Of a stretch of DNA of 58,289 nt, positions 39,732 through 57,610 are shown piece after piece. Made by a program: the position numbers and the translations under genes. Position 1 is the first letter of the stretch, and each line of letters starts with the position of its first letter. The DNA comes from Eubacteriales bacterium (GTDB taxonomy: Bacteria > Bacillota > Clostridia > Oscillospirales > Oscillospiraceae), in NCBI GenBank assembly GCA_030529725.1, contig JAUMWI010000003.1:23528-81816 (forward strand). Direction: 5' to 3'. The notes under the pieces are model-generated. The model worked only from the letters and a program-made list of their open reading frames with translations, searched no databases and was not told the origin of the DNA.

Positions 39732-41396
39732 ATGAAAAAAACGAAACGATATATAGGCCTTCTGCTCTCGGCTGTAATGCTTTTTACCGTGCTTACCGGC
39801 TGCGGGAGTGAGAAGGAGGAAGAAGAGAAGTTTGTTCTGCGCGTGTGTGTCTGTGATCAGATCGCGTCGCTGGACCCTGCGATGAATACCGACCGTGCGG
39901 CGCAAAGCGTATTTTACACCCTCTATGAAAACCTGATGCGCTATGTCGATGACGGTACAGGCTCTGCGGTGCTGACAAACGGTATTGCCAAGGAGTACAC
40001 GGAGGAGAATAATTACGACGGCACAGTTACGTACCAGTTTTCTCTACGTTCCTCGGCTCGCTGGTCAGATGGCGAGAAGGTCACGGCTGACGACTTTGTA
40101 TATGCCTGGAGACGACTGGTGGACCCAGCAACGGACTCGCCCAATCACGAGCTTTTGTCGATGGTTCAGGGCTACGATACCGTGCGTGCGAGCGGTGATG
40201 CCTCTGCCCTTGCTGTCTCCGCAAAAAGTGACACGACCTTCTGTGTGACACTCTCATACCCCTGTGCCTATTTTCTCGACGGCGTGTGCGCCAGCGTTGC
40301 TGCCATGCCGCTGCGGCGGGACGTGGTGGAAAAAGATGCCGAGAACTGGGCAACGACATTTAATGTCGTGACAGACGGTGCTTACCGTGTCGGCACCTGG
40401 ACGAAGGAGAGCTATTTGCAGACGAAGCGTAATGACAAGTATTACGAAAGCAGGCTGGTAGGGCCTGATGCAGTGCGTTTTCTCTTTGCCGATGATGCGG
40501 ATGCCGCGTATGCGCTCTATGAAAGCGGCGAAGCGGATTATACCTCCAGAATCCCGCAGCGCGTGCTTTCACAGGATGAGCTGAGCGAAACATGGACGGC
40601 AACACCGCTGTTTGCGACCTATTGTGTGCTCTATAATAACCTTACGGATACATTTTCCGATGAACACGCGCGCAAGGCGTTTGACCTTGTCATTGACCGC
40701 AGTGCCATTGCCGCCGCCGCGGGTCCGGAATACTCTCCTGCCTGCGGACTCGTGCCCGTTGGCGTTCGTGACAGTGCCGAAGGCCCGGGTGCCGCGGACT
40801 ACAGAAGTGTCGGCGGCGAGCTGTGTGAGATTGACACAGAGGGATATGAGATCCGCTGCGCCGAAGCCTTGGATGAGATGAAGCTTGCCGGCCATTACAA
40901 CGGCGCCGGGTTCCCTGTGGTGGAGTATCTCTACAATACCGAAGAAGACGTCGGCGGCATCGTTGCCTCCTGCGTGCAGAGTATGTGGAAGGATGCGCTC
41001 GGCGTTACCGTGCGGCTTACCGGACTGAGTGAGGAGGAATACCGGGAGCGGATCACCTCCGGAGAATATGAGCTTGCCGGTCAGTACCTCACCGCACAGC
41101 AGAACGATGCAATGAGTTTCCTGGACTGTTTTGCAAGCGGAAGCGCAGACAACGCCATTCGCTACAGCAACCACACATACGATGTGCTGATGGGTGTTGC
41201 GAAAAAGTCGGAAAATACGGTTGCCCGTATCGCGTTCCTGCATGACGCGGAGACGATGCTCCTGGAGAGTGCGCCGCTGTCTCCGGTGATCTTTGGCGCA
41301 TCGGCACATTCGCAGCGCGAAGGATTGCAGGGTATTTACCATGACGGGCTGGGTAACAGCTTCTTTGTGTCTGCCTCCCAAACCAACGGAACATAA
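39732..41396 (+). CDS. Oligopeptide ABC transporter substrate-binding lipoprotein (OppA-like)
   Basis: 554-residue lipoprotein of the SBP_bac_5 family. Signal peptide residues 1-21 end in the lipobox LTGC, followed by an acidic linker. SLDPAMNTDRAAQSVFYTLYENLMRY (seen as SLDPA and YENLMRY) and FSLRSSARWSDGEKVTADDFVYAWRR (RWSDGEKVTADDF) are the family hallmarks. It would bind peptides outside the membrane and deliver them to a permease, but no opp permease or ATPase gene is near, so it is an orphan that probably uses a transporter encoded elsewhere. Confidence 0.92.
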   Translation: MKKTKRYIGLLLSAVMLFTVLTGCGSEKEEEEKFVLRVCVCDQIASLDPAMNTDRAAQSVFYTLYENLMRYVDDGTGSAVLTNGIAKEYTEENNYDGTVTYQFSLRSSARWSDGEKVTADDFVYAWRRLVDPATDSPNHELLSMVQGYDTVRASGDASALAVSAKSDTTFCVTLSYPCAYFLDGVCASVAAMPLRRDVVEKDAENWATTFNVVTDGAYRVGTWTKESYLQTKRNDKYYESRLVGPDAVRFLFADDADAAYALYESGEADYTSRIPQRVLSQDELSETWTATPLFATYCVLYNNLTDTFSDEHARKAFDLVIDRSAIAAAAGPEYSPACGLVPVGVRDSAEGPGAADYRSVGGELCEIDTEGYEIRCAEALDEMKLAGHYNGAGFPVVEYLYNTEEDVGGIVASCVQSMWKDALGVTVRLTGLSEEEYRERITSGEYELAGQYLTAQQNDAMSFLDCFASGSADNAIRYSNHTYDVLMGVAKKSENTVARIAFLHDAETMLLESAPLSPVIFGASAHSQREGLQGIYHDGLGNSFFVSASQTNGT

Positions 41397-41430
41397 AAAA
41401 ATGCTCACGACATTCGTGAGCATTTTTTTT
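41395..41430. terminator. Terminator after the oligopeptide-binding gene
   Basis: A 10-bp perfect stem (41401-41410 with 41414-41423), CAT loop, preceded by A6 and followed by T7. Confidence 0.93.
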
Positions 41431-41515: not shown

Positions 41516-41544
41516 TTGACTTTAGCGGTGTAAAGCTTTATAGT
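41516..41544 (+). promoter_or_regulatory. Sigma-A promoter of the TrpXYZ-like importer operon
   Basis: TTGACT (41516-41521), 17-base spacer, TATAGT (41539-41544). The transcript would start near 41551 and run through a leader of about 210 bases before the first structural gene. Confidence 0.82.
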
Positions 41545-41594
41545 TTTAAATAGCGAAAGAGAGACGCCGAAAGGCAGAAAGGATTCCGCAGGCA

Positions 41595-41669
41595 ATGAGA
41601 AGTATGAACCGTTTCGAACGTTACTTTGCAGCCCGTTACTGTGCAGCATTGGACCGATACCGTCTTTGA
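41595..41669 (+). CDS. Arg/Tyr-rich leader peptide
   Basis: A 24-codon open frame within the leader of the TrpXYZ-like operon. AAAGGA lies 11 bases before its ATG; an internal ATG at 41604 would also work. The peptide has six Arg and three Tyr, always as Arg-Tyr pairs (CGT TAC, CGT TAC, CGA TAC), plus two Phe; the centre is a tandem five-residue repeat RYFAA/RYCAA encoded by a near-perfect 14-base repeat (41619-41632, 41634-41647). The TGA stop is the first part of a sequence that can pair with the downstream terminator. The pattern is that of a ribosome-mediated attenuator; translation has not been shown. Confidence 0.6.
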   Translation: MRSMNRFERYFAARYCAALDRYRL

Positions 41670-41739
41670 AAACAGATAACAGACAGATAGCTGATTTGTG
41701 TACTGTTTCGTTTTCAGATGGAACAGTACTTTTGTTTTT
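41667..41739 (+). promoter_or_regulatory. Candidate antiterminator/terminator switch
   Basis: Terminator: GTACTGTT (41700-41707) pairs with AACAGTAC (41722-41729), followed by TTTTGTTTTT (41730-41739). Competing pairings: TGAAAAC (41667-41673) with GTTTTCA (41710-41716), or AAACAG (41670-41675) with CTGTTT (41703-41708). A ribosome at the leader stop codon would cover 41667-41675 and favour the terminator; one stalled at the Arg-Tyr codons would leave it free. The mechanism is inference. Confidence 0.6.
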
Positions 41740-41761
41740 AAATGAAAAAAGGAGAATTACC

Positions 41762-42742
41762 ATGAAGAAATTTTTAACTGCTGTTTTAGCTCTTGCACTT
41801 TCCGTAAGCCTTGTGGCCTGCGGCGGAACCGATACGACCGCACAGGGCGGTGACACTGCCGGTCAGGTGACCTATACCGTCGGCATTTGCCAGCTTGTCC
41901 AGCACGCAGCACTTGACGCTGCCACGCAGGGCTTTATCGATGCGCTCAACGAGGCACTGCCCGGTCATGTGGTGTTTGAGGAAAAGAATGCCTCCGGAGA
42001 TCCTGCCAACTGCTCCACCATTGTCAACGGCTTTGTTTCCGAGGGCGTGGATCTCATCATGGCGAACGCAACTCCGGCACTGACCGCTGCTGTTTCTGCC
42101 ACGGCAGACATTCCCATTCTCGGCACCTCTGTCACGGCTTACGGCGTGGCGCTCGATCTTGATGATTTCTCCGGAACCGTCGGCGGCAATGTATCCGGTA
42201 CGTCCGACCTTGCTGACCTTGAGGCACAGGCGAATATGATCACCGAATGGTTCCCTGAGGCCAAGAACGTGGGACTGCTGTTCTGCTCCGCAGAAGCCAA
42301 CTCTCGCTACCAGGTCGATGAAGTTGCCAAGCTCCTCGGTGCCAAGGGCATTACCTGCAAGGAATTTGCCTTCACTGACACGAACGATGTTGCATCGCTT
42401 GCCCAGTCTGCCGCCGAATTCTCCGATGTTGTCTACATCCCAACGGATAATGTTGCCGCTTCCAACAAGGAAGCGATTGCAAATGTGCTGCTTCCTGCCG
42501 GTGTTCCTGCTGTGGCAGGGGAAGAGGGCATCTGCACCGACTGCGGCGTGTGCACGCTTTCCATCAGCTACTACGATCTCGGCCGCACGACTGGCGAGAT
42601 GGCGGCAAAGATCCTGACCGGCGAAGCCGATATTTCCACGATGGCAGTCGAGTACACCACCGCAACACCGAAGTTCGATGCTGATGTATGCGAAAAACTG
42701 GGCATCACTCCGTTGGATGGCTACGTTGCCATTGAAAAGTAA
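41762..42742 (+). CDS. ABC transporter substrate-binding lipoprotein (TrpX-like, PF04392)
   Basis: 326-residue lipoprotein; signal peptide ends in the lipobox LVAC at about residue 20. The mature part (IVNGFVSEGVDLIMANATPALTA and LLFCSAEANSRYQVDEVAKLL) matches the ABC_sub_bind family, of which the streptococcal TrpX binds tryptophan. AAAAGGAG sits before the ATG, about 22 bases after the leader terminator. The Tyr/Phe/Arg-rich leader peptide hints at an aromatic amino acid or arginine as ligand, but the leader has no Trp codon. Confidence 0.88.
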   Translation: MKKFLTAVLALALSVSLVACGGTDTTAQGGDTAGQVTYTVGICQLVQHAALDAATQGFIDALNEALPGHVVFEEKNASGDPANCSTIVNGFVSEGVDLIMANATPALTAAVSATADIPILGTSVTAYGVALDLDDFSGTVGGNVSGTSDLADLEAQANMITEWFPEAKNVGLLFCSAEANSRYQVDEVAKLLGAKGITCKEFAFTDTNDVASLAQSAAEFSDVVYIPTDNVAASNKEAIANVLLPAGVPAVAGEEGICTDCGVCTLSISYYDLGRTTGEMAAKILTGEADISTMAVEYTTATPKFDADVCEKLGITPLDGYVAIEK

Positions 42743-42821: not shown

Positions 42822-43754
42822 ATGAATTTTCTGATCCCTCTTTGCAACGCAATGCCCGGCGCGGTGGCGCAGGGTGTTGTTTGGGGCATTATGGCCATCG
42901 GCGTTTACATTACTTACCGTATCCTTGACGTGGCAGATCTTACCGTCGACGGATCGCTTGCCACCGGCGGTGCCGTGTGTGTGATGTTGATTCGCTCGGG
43001 GCTGAATCCGTGGCTTGCGCTGCTGTGCGCGATGGCGGCCGGTATGCTCGCCGGCTTTGTGACGGGACTTTTTCACACGCGCTGCGGCATTCCTGCGATC
43101 CTATCCGGTATTCTGACGCAGCTGGCGCTGTATTCCGTCAATCTGCGGATCATGGAGAGCAAAGCCAATCAGGCGATCGGTGTGGATAAGTACGACCTGC
43201 TGGTTTCGCAGCGCTATGTCCGTGCAATGACGCTCGACAATCCGCTGCCGCTGCTGCTTGTGCTGACGGCCGCGGTTATCTGGGTTTTATACTGGTTCTT
43301 CGGCACGGAAAAGGGCAGTGCCATTCGCGCCACCGGAGCCAACGCCAATATGGCTCGCGCCCAGGGAATCGATACCAACGCCAATGTTGTGCTGGGACTG
43401 ATGATCTCCAACGGTCTTGTGGCACTTTCCGGTGCGCTGCTGGCGCAGTATCAGGGCTCTGCCGATGTTAACATGGGGCGCGGCGGCATCGTGATCGGTC
43501 TTGCTGCGGTCATTATCGGTGAGGTCGTGTTCGGGAAGCTGTTTGTCAACTTCGGTCTGAAGCTTTTGGCGGTTTCTGCCGGTGCAGTGATTTACTACAT
43601 CGTGCTGCAGATCGTGCTGCAGCTCGGCCTCAACACGAATGACCTCAAACTTATTACTGCACTGATCGTTGCGCTGGCACTTGCCGTTCCCTACTGGAAG
43701 GGCAAGGTATTTCACGCAAAGGCCGCAAAGAAGGGAGCGAAAGAGAATGCTTGA
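42822..43754 (+). CDS. ABC importer permease (TrpY-like)
   Basis: 310-residue permease of the BPD_transp_2 family, about eight hydrophobic segments. GIMAIGVYITYRILDVADLTVDGS near the N-terminus is typical of TrpY-type permeases. ATRANA-like GANANMARAQGID is the cytoplasmic coupling loop. ATG 42822 follows AAAAGGAGC. Overlaps the ATPase gene by 8 bases. Confidence 0.92.
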   Translation: MNFLIPLCNAMPGAVAQGVVWGIMAIGVYITYRILDVADLTVDGSLATGGAVCVMLIRSGLNPWLALLCAMAAGMLAGFVTGLFHTRCGIPAILSGILTQLALYSVNLRIMESKANQAIGVDKYDLLVSQRYVRAMTLDNPLPLLLVLTAAVIWVLYWFFGTEKGSAIRATGANANMARAQGIDTNANVVLGLMISNGLVALSGALLAQYQGSADVNMGRGGIVIGLAAVIIGEVVFGKLFVNFGLKLLAVSAGAVIYYIVLQIVLQLGLNTNDLKLITALIVALALAVPYWKGKVFHAKAAKKGAKENA

Positions 43755-44541
43755 GTTACAACATATTTCCAAGACCTTCAATCCCGGCACGGTCAATGCA
43801 AAAACCGCGCTGCGCGATTTGAGCCTCACGCTCCACGAGGGTGACTTTGTTACCGTGATCGGCGGGAACGGCGCAGGAAAGTCCACAATGCTCAATGCGG
43901 TTGCGGGTACGTTTATGGTCGATGAGGGCAAGATCCTCATTGACGGAACAGACGTGACGCATCTGCCCGAACACAAGCGTGCGGCGCTGATCGGACGTGT
44001 ATTTCAGGATCCGATGATGGGTACGGCACCGACGATGCAGATCGAGGAAAACCTCGCACTTGCCGCCCGGCGCGGACAGAGACGCGGACTGAAGTGGGGC
44101 GTGACGAATGCCGAGAGAGAAGAGTACCACGAGAAACTGAAAACACTGGGGCTCGGTCTGGAAGATCGCATGACCGCAAAGGTCGGACTTCTCTCCGGCG
44201 GTCAGCGTCAGGCGCTGACGCTGCTGATGGCATCGCTCAAACGACCGAAGCTGCTGCTGCTCGATGAGCATACGGCGGCGCTTGACCCGACAACGGCAGC
44301 CAAGGTGCTGGAGCTTTCCGACAGGATCGTGGAGGAAAATGGCCTGACTGCTATGATGATCACCCACAATATGACCGATGCGATCCGCCACGGAAATCGT
44401 CTGATCATGATGAATGAGGGAAAAATTATTCTCGATATTGCAGGAGAAGAGAAGAAAAAACTCACCAAGAAGGACCTCCTTGAGCGTTTCGCCGCGCTTG
44501 CCGGCGTGCAGGAGGAGACGGACGCCGTGTTGTTGTCGTAA
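43747..44541 (+). CDS. ABC importer ATPase (TrpZ-like)
   Basis: 264-residue ATPase driving the importer. Walker A is GGNGAGKST, Q-loop VFQDPMMGT, signature LSGGQRQALTLLMA, Walker B LLLLDEHTAALDP and H-loop ITHNMTDA. DEHTAALDP, with His after the Glu, is the usual form in this subfamily. GGGAGCGAAAGAGA precedes the ATG, inside the permease gene. Last gene of the three-gene operon. Confidence 0.93.
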   Translation: MLELQHISKTFNPGTVNAKTALRDLSLTLHEGDFVTVIGGNGAGKSTMLNAVAGTFMVDEGKILIDGTDVTHLPEHKRAALIGRVFQDPMMGTAPTMQIEENLALAARRGQRRGLKWGVTNAEREEYHEKLKTLGLGLEDRMTAKVGLLSGGQRQALTLLMASLKRPKLLLLDEHTAALDPTTAAKVLELSDRIVEENGLTAMMITHNMTDAIRHGNRLIMMNEGKIILDIAGEEKKKLTKKDLLERFAALAGVQEETDAVLLS

Positions 44542-47739: not shown

Positions 47740-49482
47740 ATGAACATGATTCAAAGCGCAAAAGATCAGGTCGCCCAACTGACACAGAAAGCATACGCAG
47801 CCGCCGTGCAGGAAAACCTTCTGCCCGAAGGCGTGACGACCGTCCCCGCCGTCGAGATCCCCAAGGATACCTCGAACGGCGACTACACCACCACCTTCTG
47901 CCTGGCAGCTTCCAAGGCGATGCACAAGAATCCCCGCGAGGTGGCGAACATTCTGACTTCCCACATGCAGCTTGACGGCACCTACTTTACCTCTGTTGAG
48001 ATCGCAGGCCCCGGCTTCCTGAACTTCCGCCTCGGTGAGAAGTGGTATGCCGATGTGGTTGCCGCTGTTGAGAACGAGGGCAAGGATTTCGGCCGCGGCG
48101 AGGGTCTCAAGGGCAAGAAGTATATGGTCGAATTTGTCTCCGCCAACCCGACCGGTCCCATGCACATGGGCAACGCGCGCGGCGGCGTTCTGGGCGATAC
48201 GCTTGCAGAGGTGCTCGACTGGTCCGGTGCAGACGTCTGGCGCGAGTTCTATGTCAACGACTTCGGCAATCAGATCGACAAGTTCGCCAAGAGCATTGAG
48301 GCGCGCTATATTCAGCTCATCAAGGGCGAGGATGCCGTTGAATTCCCTGAGGACGGATACCACGGTGACGATATCCGCGAGCTGGCGGAAGCTTACCGCG
48401 CTGCAAACGGTGACGGCCTTCTTGATGTGGATGAGCAGACCCGCCGCGACACGCTGGCGAACTTCGGCCTTGAGAGTAATATCCCCAAGATGAAGTCCGA
48501 CCTCAAGCGCTACGGCATTGAGTTTGACGAGTGGTTCTTCGAGTCCTACCTGCACAACAGCGGACTTGTTGCCAAGGCGATGGATGAGCTGACCAAACTC
48601 GGCTGGACCTACGAAAAGGAAGGCGCCCTGTGGCTGCGCACCGCTGACATCACGCGCGAGCAGCTCAAGAAATCCGGCAAGAAGGACGAGGAAATCGACA
48701 AGCTCGATCTCAAGGATGACGTGCTGCGCCGCGCCAACGGTTTTTACACTTATTTTGCCGGCGACATTGCTTATCATTACAACAAGTTCTCCATTCGCGG
48801 CTTCGATAAGGTCATCAATATCTGGGGCGCCGACCATCACGGTCATGTTGCCCGTCTCAAGGGTGCCATGGACGCGCTCGGTCTCAACGGTACGGAGCGT
48901 CTTGACATCGTGCTGATGCAGCTTGTTAAGCTCGTGCGCGATGGCGAAGTCGTGCGTATGTCCAAGCGTACCGGCAAGACGATCTCCCTTTCTGATCTGC
49001 TTGACGAGATTCCGGTCGATGCCTGCCGTTACTTCTTCAACGCCAAGCCGGAGACCCAGATGGAGTTCGACCTCGGCCTTGCCGTCCGTGAGGACAGTGA
49101 GAACCCCGTCTACTATATCCAGTACGCCCACGCCCGTATCTGCAGCCTGCTCAAGGCGCTTGCAGAGGAAGGCTACACGGCACCCGAGGCAGCGAAGATC
49201 AACATCGCGCTTGCCCAGAGTGAGCAGGAGCAGGCACTGATCAAGGAGCTCTCTGCCTTCAGCGAGGAAATCCGCATGGCGGCTCGTGATTATGACCCGA
49301 GCTATATCAACCGCTATCTCGTGCGTCTCGCTGCTGCGTTCCACCGCTTCTACAATGCCTGCCGCATTAAGGGCGAAGCCGATGACGTCATCGCTGTTCG
49401 TCTCAAGCTTGCTGAGGCGACCAAGCAGGTGCTTGCCAACGGCCTTGGTATCCTCGGTCTCAATGCACCGGAAAAGATGTAA
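47740..49482 (+). CDS. argS: Arginine--tRNA ligase
   Basis: 580-residue class I aminoacyl-tRNA synthetase. HIGH motif is NPTGPMHMGNARG (HMGN), the KMSKS site is degenerate as VRMSKRTGKTISL, and the C-terminal DALR anticodon-binding domain includes RFYNACRI. ACGAGG sits before the ATG. It charges tRNA-Arg, and a tRNA-Arg(ACG) gene lies 8 kb downstream in the arginine region. Single gene with its own promoter and terminator. Confidence 0.96.
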   Translation: MNMIQSAKDQVAQLTQKAYAAAVQENLLPEGVTTVPAVEIPKDTSNGDYTTTFCLAASKAMHKNPREVANILTSHMQLDGTYFTSVEIAGPGFLNFRLGEKWYADVVAAVENEGKDFGRGEGLKGKKYMVEFVSANPTGPMHMGNARGGVLGDTLAEVLDWSGADVWREFYVNDFGNQIDKFAKSIEARYIQLIKGEDAVEFPEDGYHGDDIRELAEAYRAANGDGLLDVDEQTRRDTLANFGLESNIPKMKSDLKRYGIEFDEWFFESYLHNSGLVAKAMDELTKLGWTYEKEGALWLRTADITREQLKKSGKKDEEIDKLDLKDDVLRRANGFYTYFAGDIAYHYNKFSIRGFDKVINIWGADHHGHVARLKGAMDALGLNGTERLDIVLMQLVKLVRDGEVVRMSKRTGKTISLSDLLDEIPVDACRYFFNAKPETQMEFDLGLAVREDSENPVYYIQYAHARICSLLKALAEEGYTAPEAAKINIALAQSEQEQALIKELSAFSEEIRMAARDYDPSYINRYLVRLAAAFHRFYNACRIKGEADDVIAVRLKLAEATKQVLANGLGILGLNAPEKM

Positions 49483-57533: not shown

Positions 57534-57610
57534 GCGCCGTTAGCTCAGCTGGATAGAGCGTCTGGCTACGGACCAGAAGGCCGGGGGTTCGAATCCCTCA
57601 CGGCGTACCA
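57534..57610 (+). tRNA. tRNA-Arg (anticodon ACG)
   Basis: A full 77-base cloverleaf with encoded CCA. The acceptor stem GCGCCGT pairs with ACGGCGT (one G-U), the D arm is GCTC...GAGC, the anticodon stem TCTGG/CCAGA frames the loop CTACGGA, and the T loop is TTCGAAT. Anticodon ACG (57568-57570), read as ICG after deamination, decodes CGU, CGC and CGA. It lies between arcA and argR with its own strong promoter and terminator. Confidence 0.97.

Follow-up and report, generated by a model that had tools for sequence, protein, structure and literature searches.

A candidate leader-peptide attenuator, probably responsive to tyrosine and phenylalanine, upstream of a putative tyrosine importer operon in Oscillospiraceae

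Introduction

What switches on a small importer operon in a gut bacterium of the Oscillospiraceae, and to which amino acid does the switch respond? The operon lies in a stretch of 58,289 nucleotides (the window, i.e., the whole stretch of DNA that was analysed; assembly GCA_030529725.1, contig JAUMWI010000003.1, positions 23,528 to 81,816 of the forward strand); the assembly is 1.6 Mb and 93% complete. A preliminary description of this DNA proposed ribosome-mediated attenuation by a leader peptide with Arg-Tyr codon pairs, named tyrosine, phenylalanine or arginine as the possible substrate, and considered such a device notable in Bacillota.

In the trp and pheA attenuators of Escherichia coli, the leader is laid out as the pairings 1:2, 2:3 and 3:4, and trp also pairs the TrpR repressor with the leader peptide. 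Attenuation by leader peptide is already known in Bacillota as well. Histidine leader peptides are reported in Firmicutes as T-box replacements (PMC2965389, PMC9413887), and a leucine attenuator of Staphylococcus aureus is described from reporter studies (PMC5794164). For TrpX of Streptococcus suis, a tryptophan T-box is reported (PMC9382623). A search of the open-access literature, through titles and the openings of abstracts and with few subscription papers, returned, among the matches listed, no leader-peptide attenuator of the Phe/Tyr type from Bacillota or Spirochaetota.

Results

Leader and operon in the window

The promoter, the 24-codon frame with three Arg-Tyr pairs and the terminator before the first gene, as described earlier, were all found in place. 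The features are as follows.

41516..41544, + strand: sigma-70-type promoter TTGACT-N17-TATAGT, agreeing with the consensus at 10 of 12 positions; relatives' leaders often have similar promoters
41521..41534, + strand: candidate operator TTTA-N6-TAAA, lying in the promoter spacer and resembling the HisR (TrpR-family) consensus TTTAnnnnnnTAAA
41578..41583, + strand: Shine-Dalgarno-like AAAGGA of the leader frame, ending 11 nt 5' of the ATG
41595..41669, + strand: leader-peptide frame MRSMNRFERYFAARYCAALDRYRL, 24 codons, recognised by sequence and by homology to leader L123
41635..41642, + strand: candidate region 1, GTTACTGT, over Tyr15, from minimum-free-energy pairing with 41672-41680
41667..41682, + strand: candidate region 2, TGAAAACAGATAACAG, overlapping the stop codon, from folding and complementarity
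41667..41716, + strand: candidate antiterminator hairpin (2:3), -12.7 kcal/mol
41700..41739, + strand: intrinsic terminator (3:4) with U-run; stem 41700-41729, 13 pairs
41762..42742, + strand: substrate-binding lipoprotein, PF04392 (ABC_sub_bind), with Glu254/Tyr270 as in the tyrosine-binding CD0873
42822..43754, + strand: permease, PF02653 (BPD_transp_2), by Pfam
43747..44541, + strand: ATP-binding protein (ABC ATPase), PF00005, by Pfam

The frame runs from ATG at 41595 to TGA at 41667-41669, with Arg-Tyr at codons 9-10, 14-15 and 21-22. The terminator stem (dG -14.5 kcal/mol) is followed directly by TTTTGTTTTT, and no shuffle out of 200 folds as well as the 86 nt that hold it (41660-41745; z -5.2). 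The 2:3 hairpin is comparable with the terminator in stability; its 50 nt gave z -2.4, with 3 of 200 shuffles as good, for a piece picked because it pairs. The complementarity between the stop codon and the terminator loop noted earlier proved exact, with TGAAAAC (41667-41673) facing GTTTTCA. The 1:2 helix of GTTACTGT with ACAGATAAC (41672-41680) was no better than shuffles (z 0.52), and the leader folded as a whole gave z -0.93. Between 41300 and 42000, one promoter-like and two terminator-like matches occur, against 0.8 and 1.0 in shuffled sequence. Complementarity between leader and terminator gave p values of 0.86, 0.16 and 0.055 under three definitions. With 4 aromatic codons in 12, the minimum for inclusion below, the window peptide is a poor example of its family, and the in-frame hairpin of its relatives was looked for in the window leader and not found. 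A search of the leader DNA against 400 family genomes returned itself and two short matches only. Taken alone, the window leader is barely above chance; the comparison with the family decides, and it is the evidence from relatives that makes the window features more than chance.

Aromatic leader frames across relatives

Relatives were collected as named genome contigs through the permease, whose best named matches are in Oscillibacter sp. MSJ-31, O. valericigenes An907 and Oscillibacter sp. ER4, and as further genomes through the binding protein. The binding-protein gene was located at 175 loci; at 165 of these, 150 nt or more of upstream sequence was available. The enrichment set, drawn from the earlier-fetched part of these loci, started from 122 loci with at least 300 nt upstream; once near-identical upstream regions had been taken out, 94 were left, of which 79 code for a protein with 50% or more identity to that of the window. 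Frames with a Shine-Dalgarno match were scored by their Phe and Tyr codons in 12 codons, with 60 dinucleotide-shuffle sets as the control.

Frames with at least 4, 5 and 6 such codons precede 27, 21 and 14 of the 79 genes, whereas the shuffled sets averaged 0.93, 0.28 and 0.07. Of the 190 possible residue pairs, Phe+Tyr ranks first (21 of 79; 0.25 expected), ahead of Ala+Phe (19), Phe+Ser (18), Arg+Phe (16) and, at 12, Arg+Tyr. In the other 52 orthologs, the lower threshold too gave no aromatic leader. The aromatic frames include YRFYYYSYFYF of Oscillibacter ER4 (L033, identical to L002), YYAYYSRYYFAGYF (L126) and, from a Sphaerochaetaceae record, FYFSFFYF (L074). A translatable short frame with clustered aromatic codons is thus present for the family and weak in the window.

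Over all 165 loci, 58 candidate leaders were found, 50 of them distinct, and an intrinsic terminator stands between frame and gene in 44 of the 50. Nine candidates (L029, L039, L052, L098, L129, L161, L164, L175, L188) were dropped by judgement to give a core set of 41 leaders, which served for the pocket counts, the late pairing tests and the residue counts. All 41 have terminators, a circular figure since the six terminator-less candidates are all among the nine dropped; 44 of 50 is the count to use. The core leaders hold 1362 residues, with 165 Phe, 146 Tyr, 5 Trp, 25 His and 132 Arg, and every one contains both Phe and Tyr, in a set preselected by the threshold of 4 aromatic codons in 12. 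Since Phe codons are as common as Tyr codons, the sensed signal is probably both.

Three records labelled as spirochaete (L074, L077, L099) also carry aromatic leader peptides with terminators. Two close orthologs depart from the pattern: L034 has a terminator and a leader frame poor in aromatic residues, and the leader frame of L129 is without an ATG start. These may be decaying or variant attenuators.

The window peptide was compared with eight leader peptides. The best, L123 of another genus, gave a local score of 53, against a shuffle mean of 20.6 and with none of 1000 shuffles as high; the other seven gave p values of 0.012 to 0.89. The two peptides have in common the block FxxY...FA[AG]R[YF]CAAxDR[YF], within which codon changes are synonymous or exchange Tyr and Phe. 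By this alignment the window peptide is homologous to that of L123. Four codons of L123 are absent from the window, including the left arm of the in-frame hairpin described below. The terminator loop and its upstream partner read TCCAAG/CTTGGA in L123 and TTTTCA/TGAAAA in the window, both sides differing together; this joint change is a single suggestive case.

These comparisons bear on the plainest alternative, that a constitutive terminator follows a chance frame whose translation has no regulatory role. The marginal statistics of the window taken alone would fit it, whereas the enrichment across the family, the permutation test reported below and the homology to L123 all argue against it, and we regard it as unlikely.

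A covarying hairpin inside the frame

Many of the leaders contain a recurrent peptide motif, R-[Y/F](x)-A-G, encoded by ..CCGC, a middle part of one to three codons, in most cases with Tyr or Phe among them, and GCGGG... In 26 of the 50 leaders, this stretch forms an in-frame hairpin of 5-8 pairs whose loop holds the middle codons. Aligned over 25 leaders (L099 was left out; 21 are distinct as aligned), 94.4% of the cells are paired, with double-sided changes at three pairs (5 cells), and none of 500 shuffles reached the observed score for either pairing or covariation. Synonymous recodings of the peptide give less stable hairpins than the natural sequence (p < 0.05 in 20 of 26), in a test biased in favour of the hairpin because the 26 leaders were chosen for at least five pairs. 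The last codon of the left arm is Arg in 22 of 25 leaders and Cys in three, so the recurring Arg is mostly explained by the part that its codon plays in the hairpin.

Aromatic codons stand 4, 5, 6 and 7 codons before this last left-arm codon in 14, 11, 18 and 12 of 22 leaders, counted without L048, L072, L073 and L099. The front of a ribosome's footprint lies about 12-13 nt ahead of the A-site codon. With aromatic codons at these distances, the front of a stalled ribosome would stand at the left arm.

A short-loop pattern written from the known leaders and run on the 400 family genomes gave six matches, five at leaders of the importer operon that had already been found and one inside a long coding frame; its reversed control gave one match.

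The recurrent motif, together with the C-terminal block common to the window and L123, might point to a nascent-chain arrest peptide that senses free tyrosine, as TnaC-like peptides do, instead of tRNA charging. This motif is accounted for at the RNA level by the covarying hairpin, Phe and Tyr swap freely, and the leaders of the spirochaete and Oscillibacter ER4 types are without R-[Y/F]-A-G; an arrest peptide is thus very unlikely.

Pairing between leader and terminator

In the comparison of ortholog leaders suggested with the preliminary description, an aromatic-rich frame is conserved, and the hairpin, which the window does not have, covaries in many relatives. Pairing of the leader with the terminator was weighed on the family under several definitions. 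In two early tests, on 28 and 26 hand-picked leaders (L004 and L075 of the 28 gave no terminator), the left arm of the terminator was compared with nearby sequence; the Fisher p values, 0.011 and 0.008 for 26 leaders each, overstate independence because the leaders are related. For the right arm of the in-frame hairpin against the terminator left arm in 23 leaders, permutation gave p 0.18 and 0.036 and shuffling p 0.107, and nine sub-windows gave permutation p values of 0.10-0.50. The best terminator partner falls inside the right arm in 9 of the 23, with 5.3 expected.

In L074 and L077, the leader frame and the terminator share an exact complement of 10 bp. A later definition, altered after this pairing had been seen, adds the terminator loop and four further bases; under it, 39 leaders gave a combined p of 5e-15, with 16 of 39 below 0.05. 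The longest exact complement between leader and terminator gave p 0.022 only in the same 39. Leaders pair better with their own terminator arm and loop than with those of others (n = 38; mean -21.6 versus -17.4 kcal/mol), and none of 20000 permutations was as low (p 5e-5), with mirrored and rotated decoys at p 0.10 and 0.12. The pairing tests exclude the near-identical L072/L073, and the permutation with n = 38 also excludes L077; automatically found terminator ends are sometimes wider than the stem (L004, L022, L023, L084), which may add noise or flatter this permutation. The window itself gave p 0.055 in these tests, and its own arm ranked 20th of 38. Pairing between leader and terminator has probably been selected in the family, in an exact form that varies and is least settled for the window.

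Equilibrium folding, in which the 5' part of the leader was masked as if by a ribosome, gave a mean terminator probability of 0.87 with the ribosome stalled, 0.95 with it at the stop codon and 0.90 without a ribosome. For the window, the values were 0.97, 0.98 and 0.97, i.e., no switch in this model. L003 (0.06 stalled, 0.97 at the stop) was the sole clear drop among six leaders shown. Since the window does not switch at equilibrium, a switch there would have to be kinetic.

T-boxes and the substrate of the importer

The Rfam scan of the window gave no T-box (RF00230, with its specifier-bearing stem I and antiterminator) at gathering score. Among 60 ortholog loci, some with short or cut upstream DNA, the same scan gave five T-boxes and one GA-cis RNA, the latter at 1604-1689 of L083, upstream of the ortholog. 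The five T-boxes (L005, L042, L049, L053, L055) stand before the same gene, where the leader stands elsewhere. Their specifier was read by eye as UAC (tyrosine) in all five, with the rule GAA-NNN-A, a placement that fits the Rfam consensus alignment. The specifier codon has been placed 1-5 nt before a conserved GAG (PMC2494555); the reading used here puts it 6 nt ahead of that GAG.

In the same genus, paralogs of the binding protein with 25-33% identity (L147-L153) have a T-box match in the corresponding position; the specifier is UGG (Trp) in all seven that were read, and three of the seven exceed the Rfam cut-off. T-boxes are in wide use in this genus, with 2-12 matches per genome at E <= 0.001, and 16 of 18 genomes have matches that exceed the Rfam cut-off; it is for this reason that the mixture of leaders and T-boxes is of interest. 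One genus would thus control its Trp-type and Tyr-type importers by different RNA devices.

The importer was described earlier as TrpXYZ-like, in agreement with PF04392; the lipoprotein scores 189 bits with the NCBIfam TrpX model and does not reach its cut-off of 390. By sequence, the nearest solved binding protein is CD0873 of Clostridioides difficile (PDB 6HNI; E 1e-41). CD0873 is reported as a tyrosine binder in which Glu-263 holds the hydroxyl group of the ligand, and the tryptophan-binding SP1069 as having Ala at that position (PMC6816091). The window protein keeps the tyrosine-contacting Glu and the pocket Tyr, as Glu254 and Tyr270. Among the proteins long enough to read, this Glu/Tyr pocket is present in 29 of 29 that belong to leaders and 5 of 5 that belong to Tyr T-boxes. 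It is also present in 91 of 93 other relatives, so the pocket marks the clade and not the leader. In the paralogs with Trp T-boxes, the Glu is replaced in 7 of 7 (Ala in six, Ser in one). Tyrosine is thus most likely the substrate, as judged from the Tyr T-boxes and the CD0873-type pocket, and is one of the three proposed earlier. In C. difficile, tyrosine is reported as the source of p-cresol (PMC6816091).

A candidate repressor site in the promoter

The promoter spacer of the window reads CTTTA-N6-TAAAG and thus holds the HisR/TrpR-family-like palindrome TTTA-N6-TAAA. The palindrome, or a near form, also stands in the promoter spacers of L003, L004, L124, L166 and others. CTTY-N7-WAAAG occurs in 30 of the 50 candidate-leader regions versus 7 of 1191 other 130-nt windows, a background made up largely of coding DNA; a small number of the 30 sites (L069, L125) are off the usual register. 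In leader-less orthologs, promoters with the operator also stand directly before the gene. Exact ACTTTA-N6-TAAAG has one match in the window's own genome, against five for reversed control patterns, and for this reason a regulon could not be drawn. TrpR-family matches were found in 17 of 18 genomes of the genus; the exception, G012, is the source of L002, and the promoter of L002 is without the site, one case only. The window's genome has two TrpR-family genes, one of them adjoining a frame that is presumably hisS. On this sequence evidence, a candidate TrpR-family (HisR-like) repressor site probably adds a second tier of control.

This site raises the alternative of a histidine importer under HisR, in which the short frame would be incidental. 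HisR is reported as a TrpR-family member with the consensus cacTTTAnnnnnnTAAAgtg in Firmicutes, which the promoter site fits, and HisXYZ operons of Clostridia are given as its targets, with some HisR2 paralogs linked to tyrosine genes (PMC9413887). The TrpR-family matches throughout the genus would also agree with it. Against it stand the rarity of His in the leaders (25 of 1362 residues), the Tyr T-boxes and tyrosine-type binding residues of the clade, and the enrichment of aromatic leaders, which together make a histidine importer very improbable.

Discussion

In this study, the leader is best explained as a ribosome-mediated attenuator that responds to both Tyr and Phe and controls a tyrosine importer. 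We consider this reading probable; the earlier proposal of leader-peptide attenuation gains support from the aromatic frames of the family and the terminators that follow them. The promoter at 41516-41544 would drive a leader RNA whose short frame belongs to a family with many Phe and Tyr codons. A shortage of charged tRNA-Tyr or tRNA-Phe would make the ribosome stall in this frame and leave the downstream leader free to pair with the left arm and loop of the terminator; termination would then fail and the importer would be expressed. With both charged tRNAs in good supply, the ribosome would reach the stop codon, which overlaps region 2 in the window, and the terminator would form. A TrpR-family (HisR-like) repressor at the promoter site would be the probable second control. 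Sequence comparison shows the conserved aromatic frame, the terminator, complementarity to it that was leader-specific in one test, the hairpin that covaries within the frames of many relatives and the binding residues of tyrosine type; the stalling, the switch, the identity of the repressor and the transport specificity are inferred.

Sensing of Arg-tRNA by the same attenuator, as the preliminary description had it, is extremely improbable: the three Arg-Tyr pairs of the window, the 132 Arg among 1362 leader residues and the excess of Arg+Phe and Arg+Tyr over shuffles speak for it, yet both pairs rank below Phe+Tyr, the recurrent Arg codon lies in a hairpin arm where Cys replaces it in 3 of 25 leaders, and the three spirochaete leaders have 2, 1 and 0 Arg. 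On the pair ranking and the role of the Arg codon in the hairpin, we reject Arg as the sensed residue.

The Tyr/Phe attenuator resembles several known systems. The histidine attenuators reported in Bacillota likewise combine a residue-rich short frame with a terminator, and have an alternative pairing such as is proposed here (PMC2965389, PMC9413887). In contrast to those, the present leaders have Phe/Tyr codons instead of His runs, precede an importer operon, contain a covarying in-frame hairpin and occur in spirochaete records too. The Leu-rich ilv-leu attenuator of S. aureus, as reported, adds the DNA-binding repressor CodY to ribosome-mediated attenuation (PMC5794164); a repressor tier is proposed here too, whereas there Leu and biosynthesis are concerned and here Tyr/Phe, an importer and a TrpR-family-like site. 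The proposed layout is also that of E. coli trp and pheA, which belong to another phylum, whereas transport genes are controlled here; homology was checked by the Rfam scan of the window. T-boxes (RF00230) do the same job, with Tyr types before orthologs and Trp types before paralogs, and sense through a specifier loop, whereas the window leader has codons in a frame. The view that such an attenuator would be notable in Bacillota thus holds for its mixture with the T-boxes of the same genus and not for leader-peptide attenuation as such, given the published His and Leu cases; what is unusual here is the in-frame hairpin of the relatives and the possible TrpR-family tier.

A wider model can be put forward tentatively, at somewhat less than even confidence. 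Two tiers like those of E. coli trp, a TrpR-family site and a leader attenuator, may have arisen separately in Bacillota for the uptake of tyrosine. A ribosome held up at a Phe or Tyr codon, set a fixed distance ahead of the in-frame hairpin, would open this hairpin with its front and release the right arm, and leader peptides, Tyr T-boxes and bare promoters with the repressor site would interchange before the same importer. One importer clade under a Tyr T-box, a Phe/Tyr leader peptide or neither, with a Trp-type paralog that keeps its T-boxes in the same genus, amounts to a natural experiment, and when and why bacteria swap T-boxes for ribosome-mediated attenuation becomes a testable question. 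In addition, tyrosine is suggested as the substrate for an importer clade known to NCBIfam only by a below-cut-off TrpX match.

Two further observations concern the surroundings of the operon. An arginyl-tRNA synthetase gene (Pfam; 47740-49482) and a tRNA-Arg gene (57534-57610) lie in the same window and probably have nothing to do with the leader's Arg codons. Just 3' of the preceding SBP_bac_5 gene, at 41396-41430, lies an inverted repeat with A- and T-runs, which by eye looks like a bidirectional terminator separating that gene from the importer operon.
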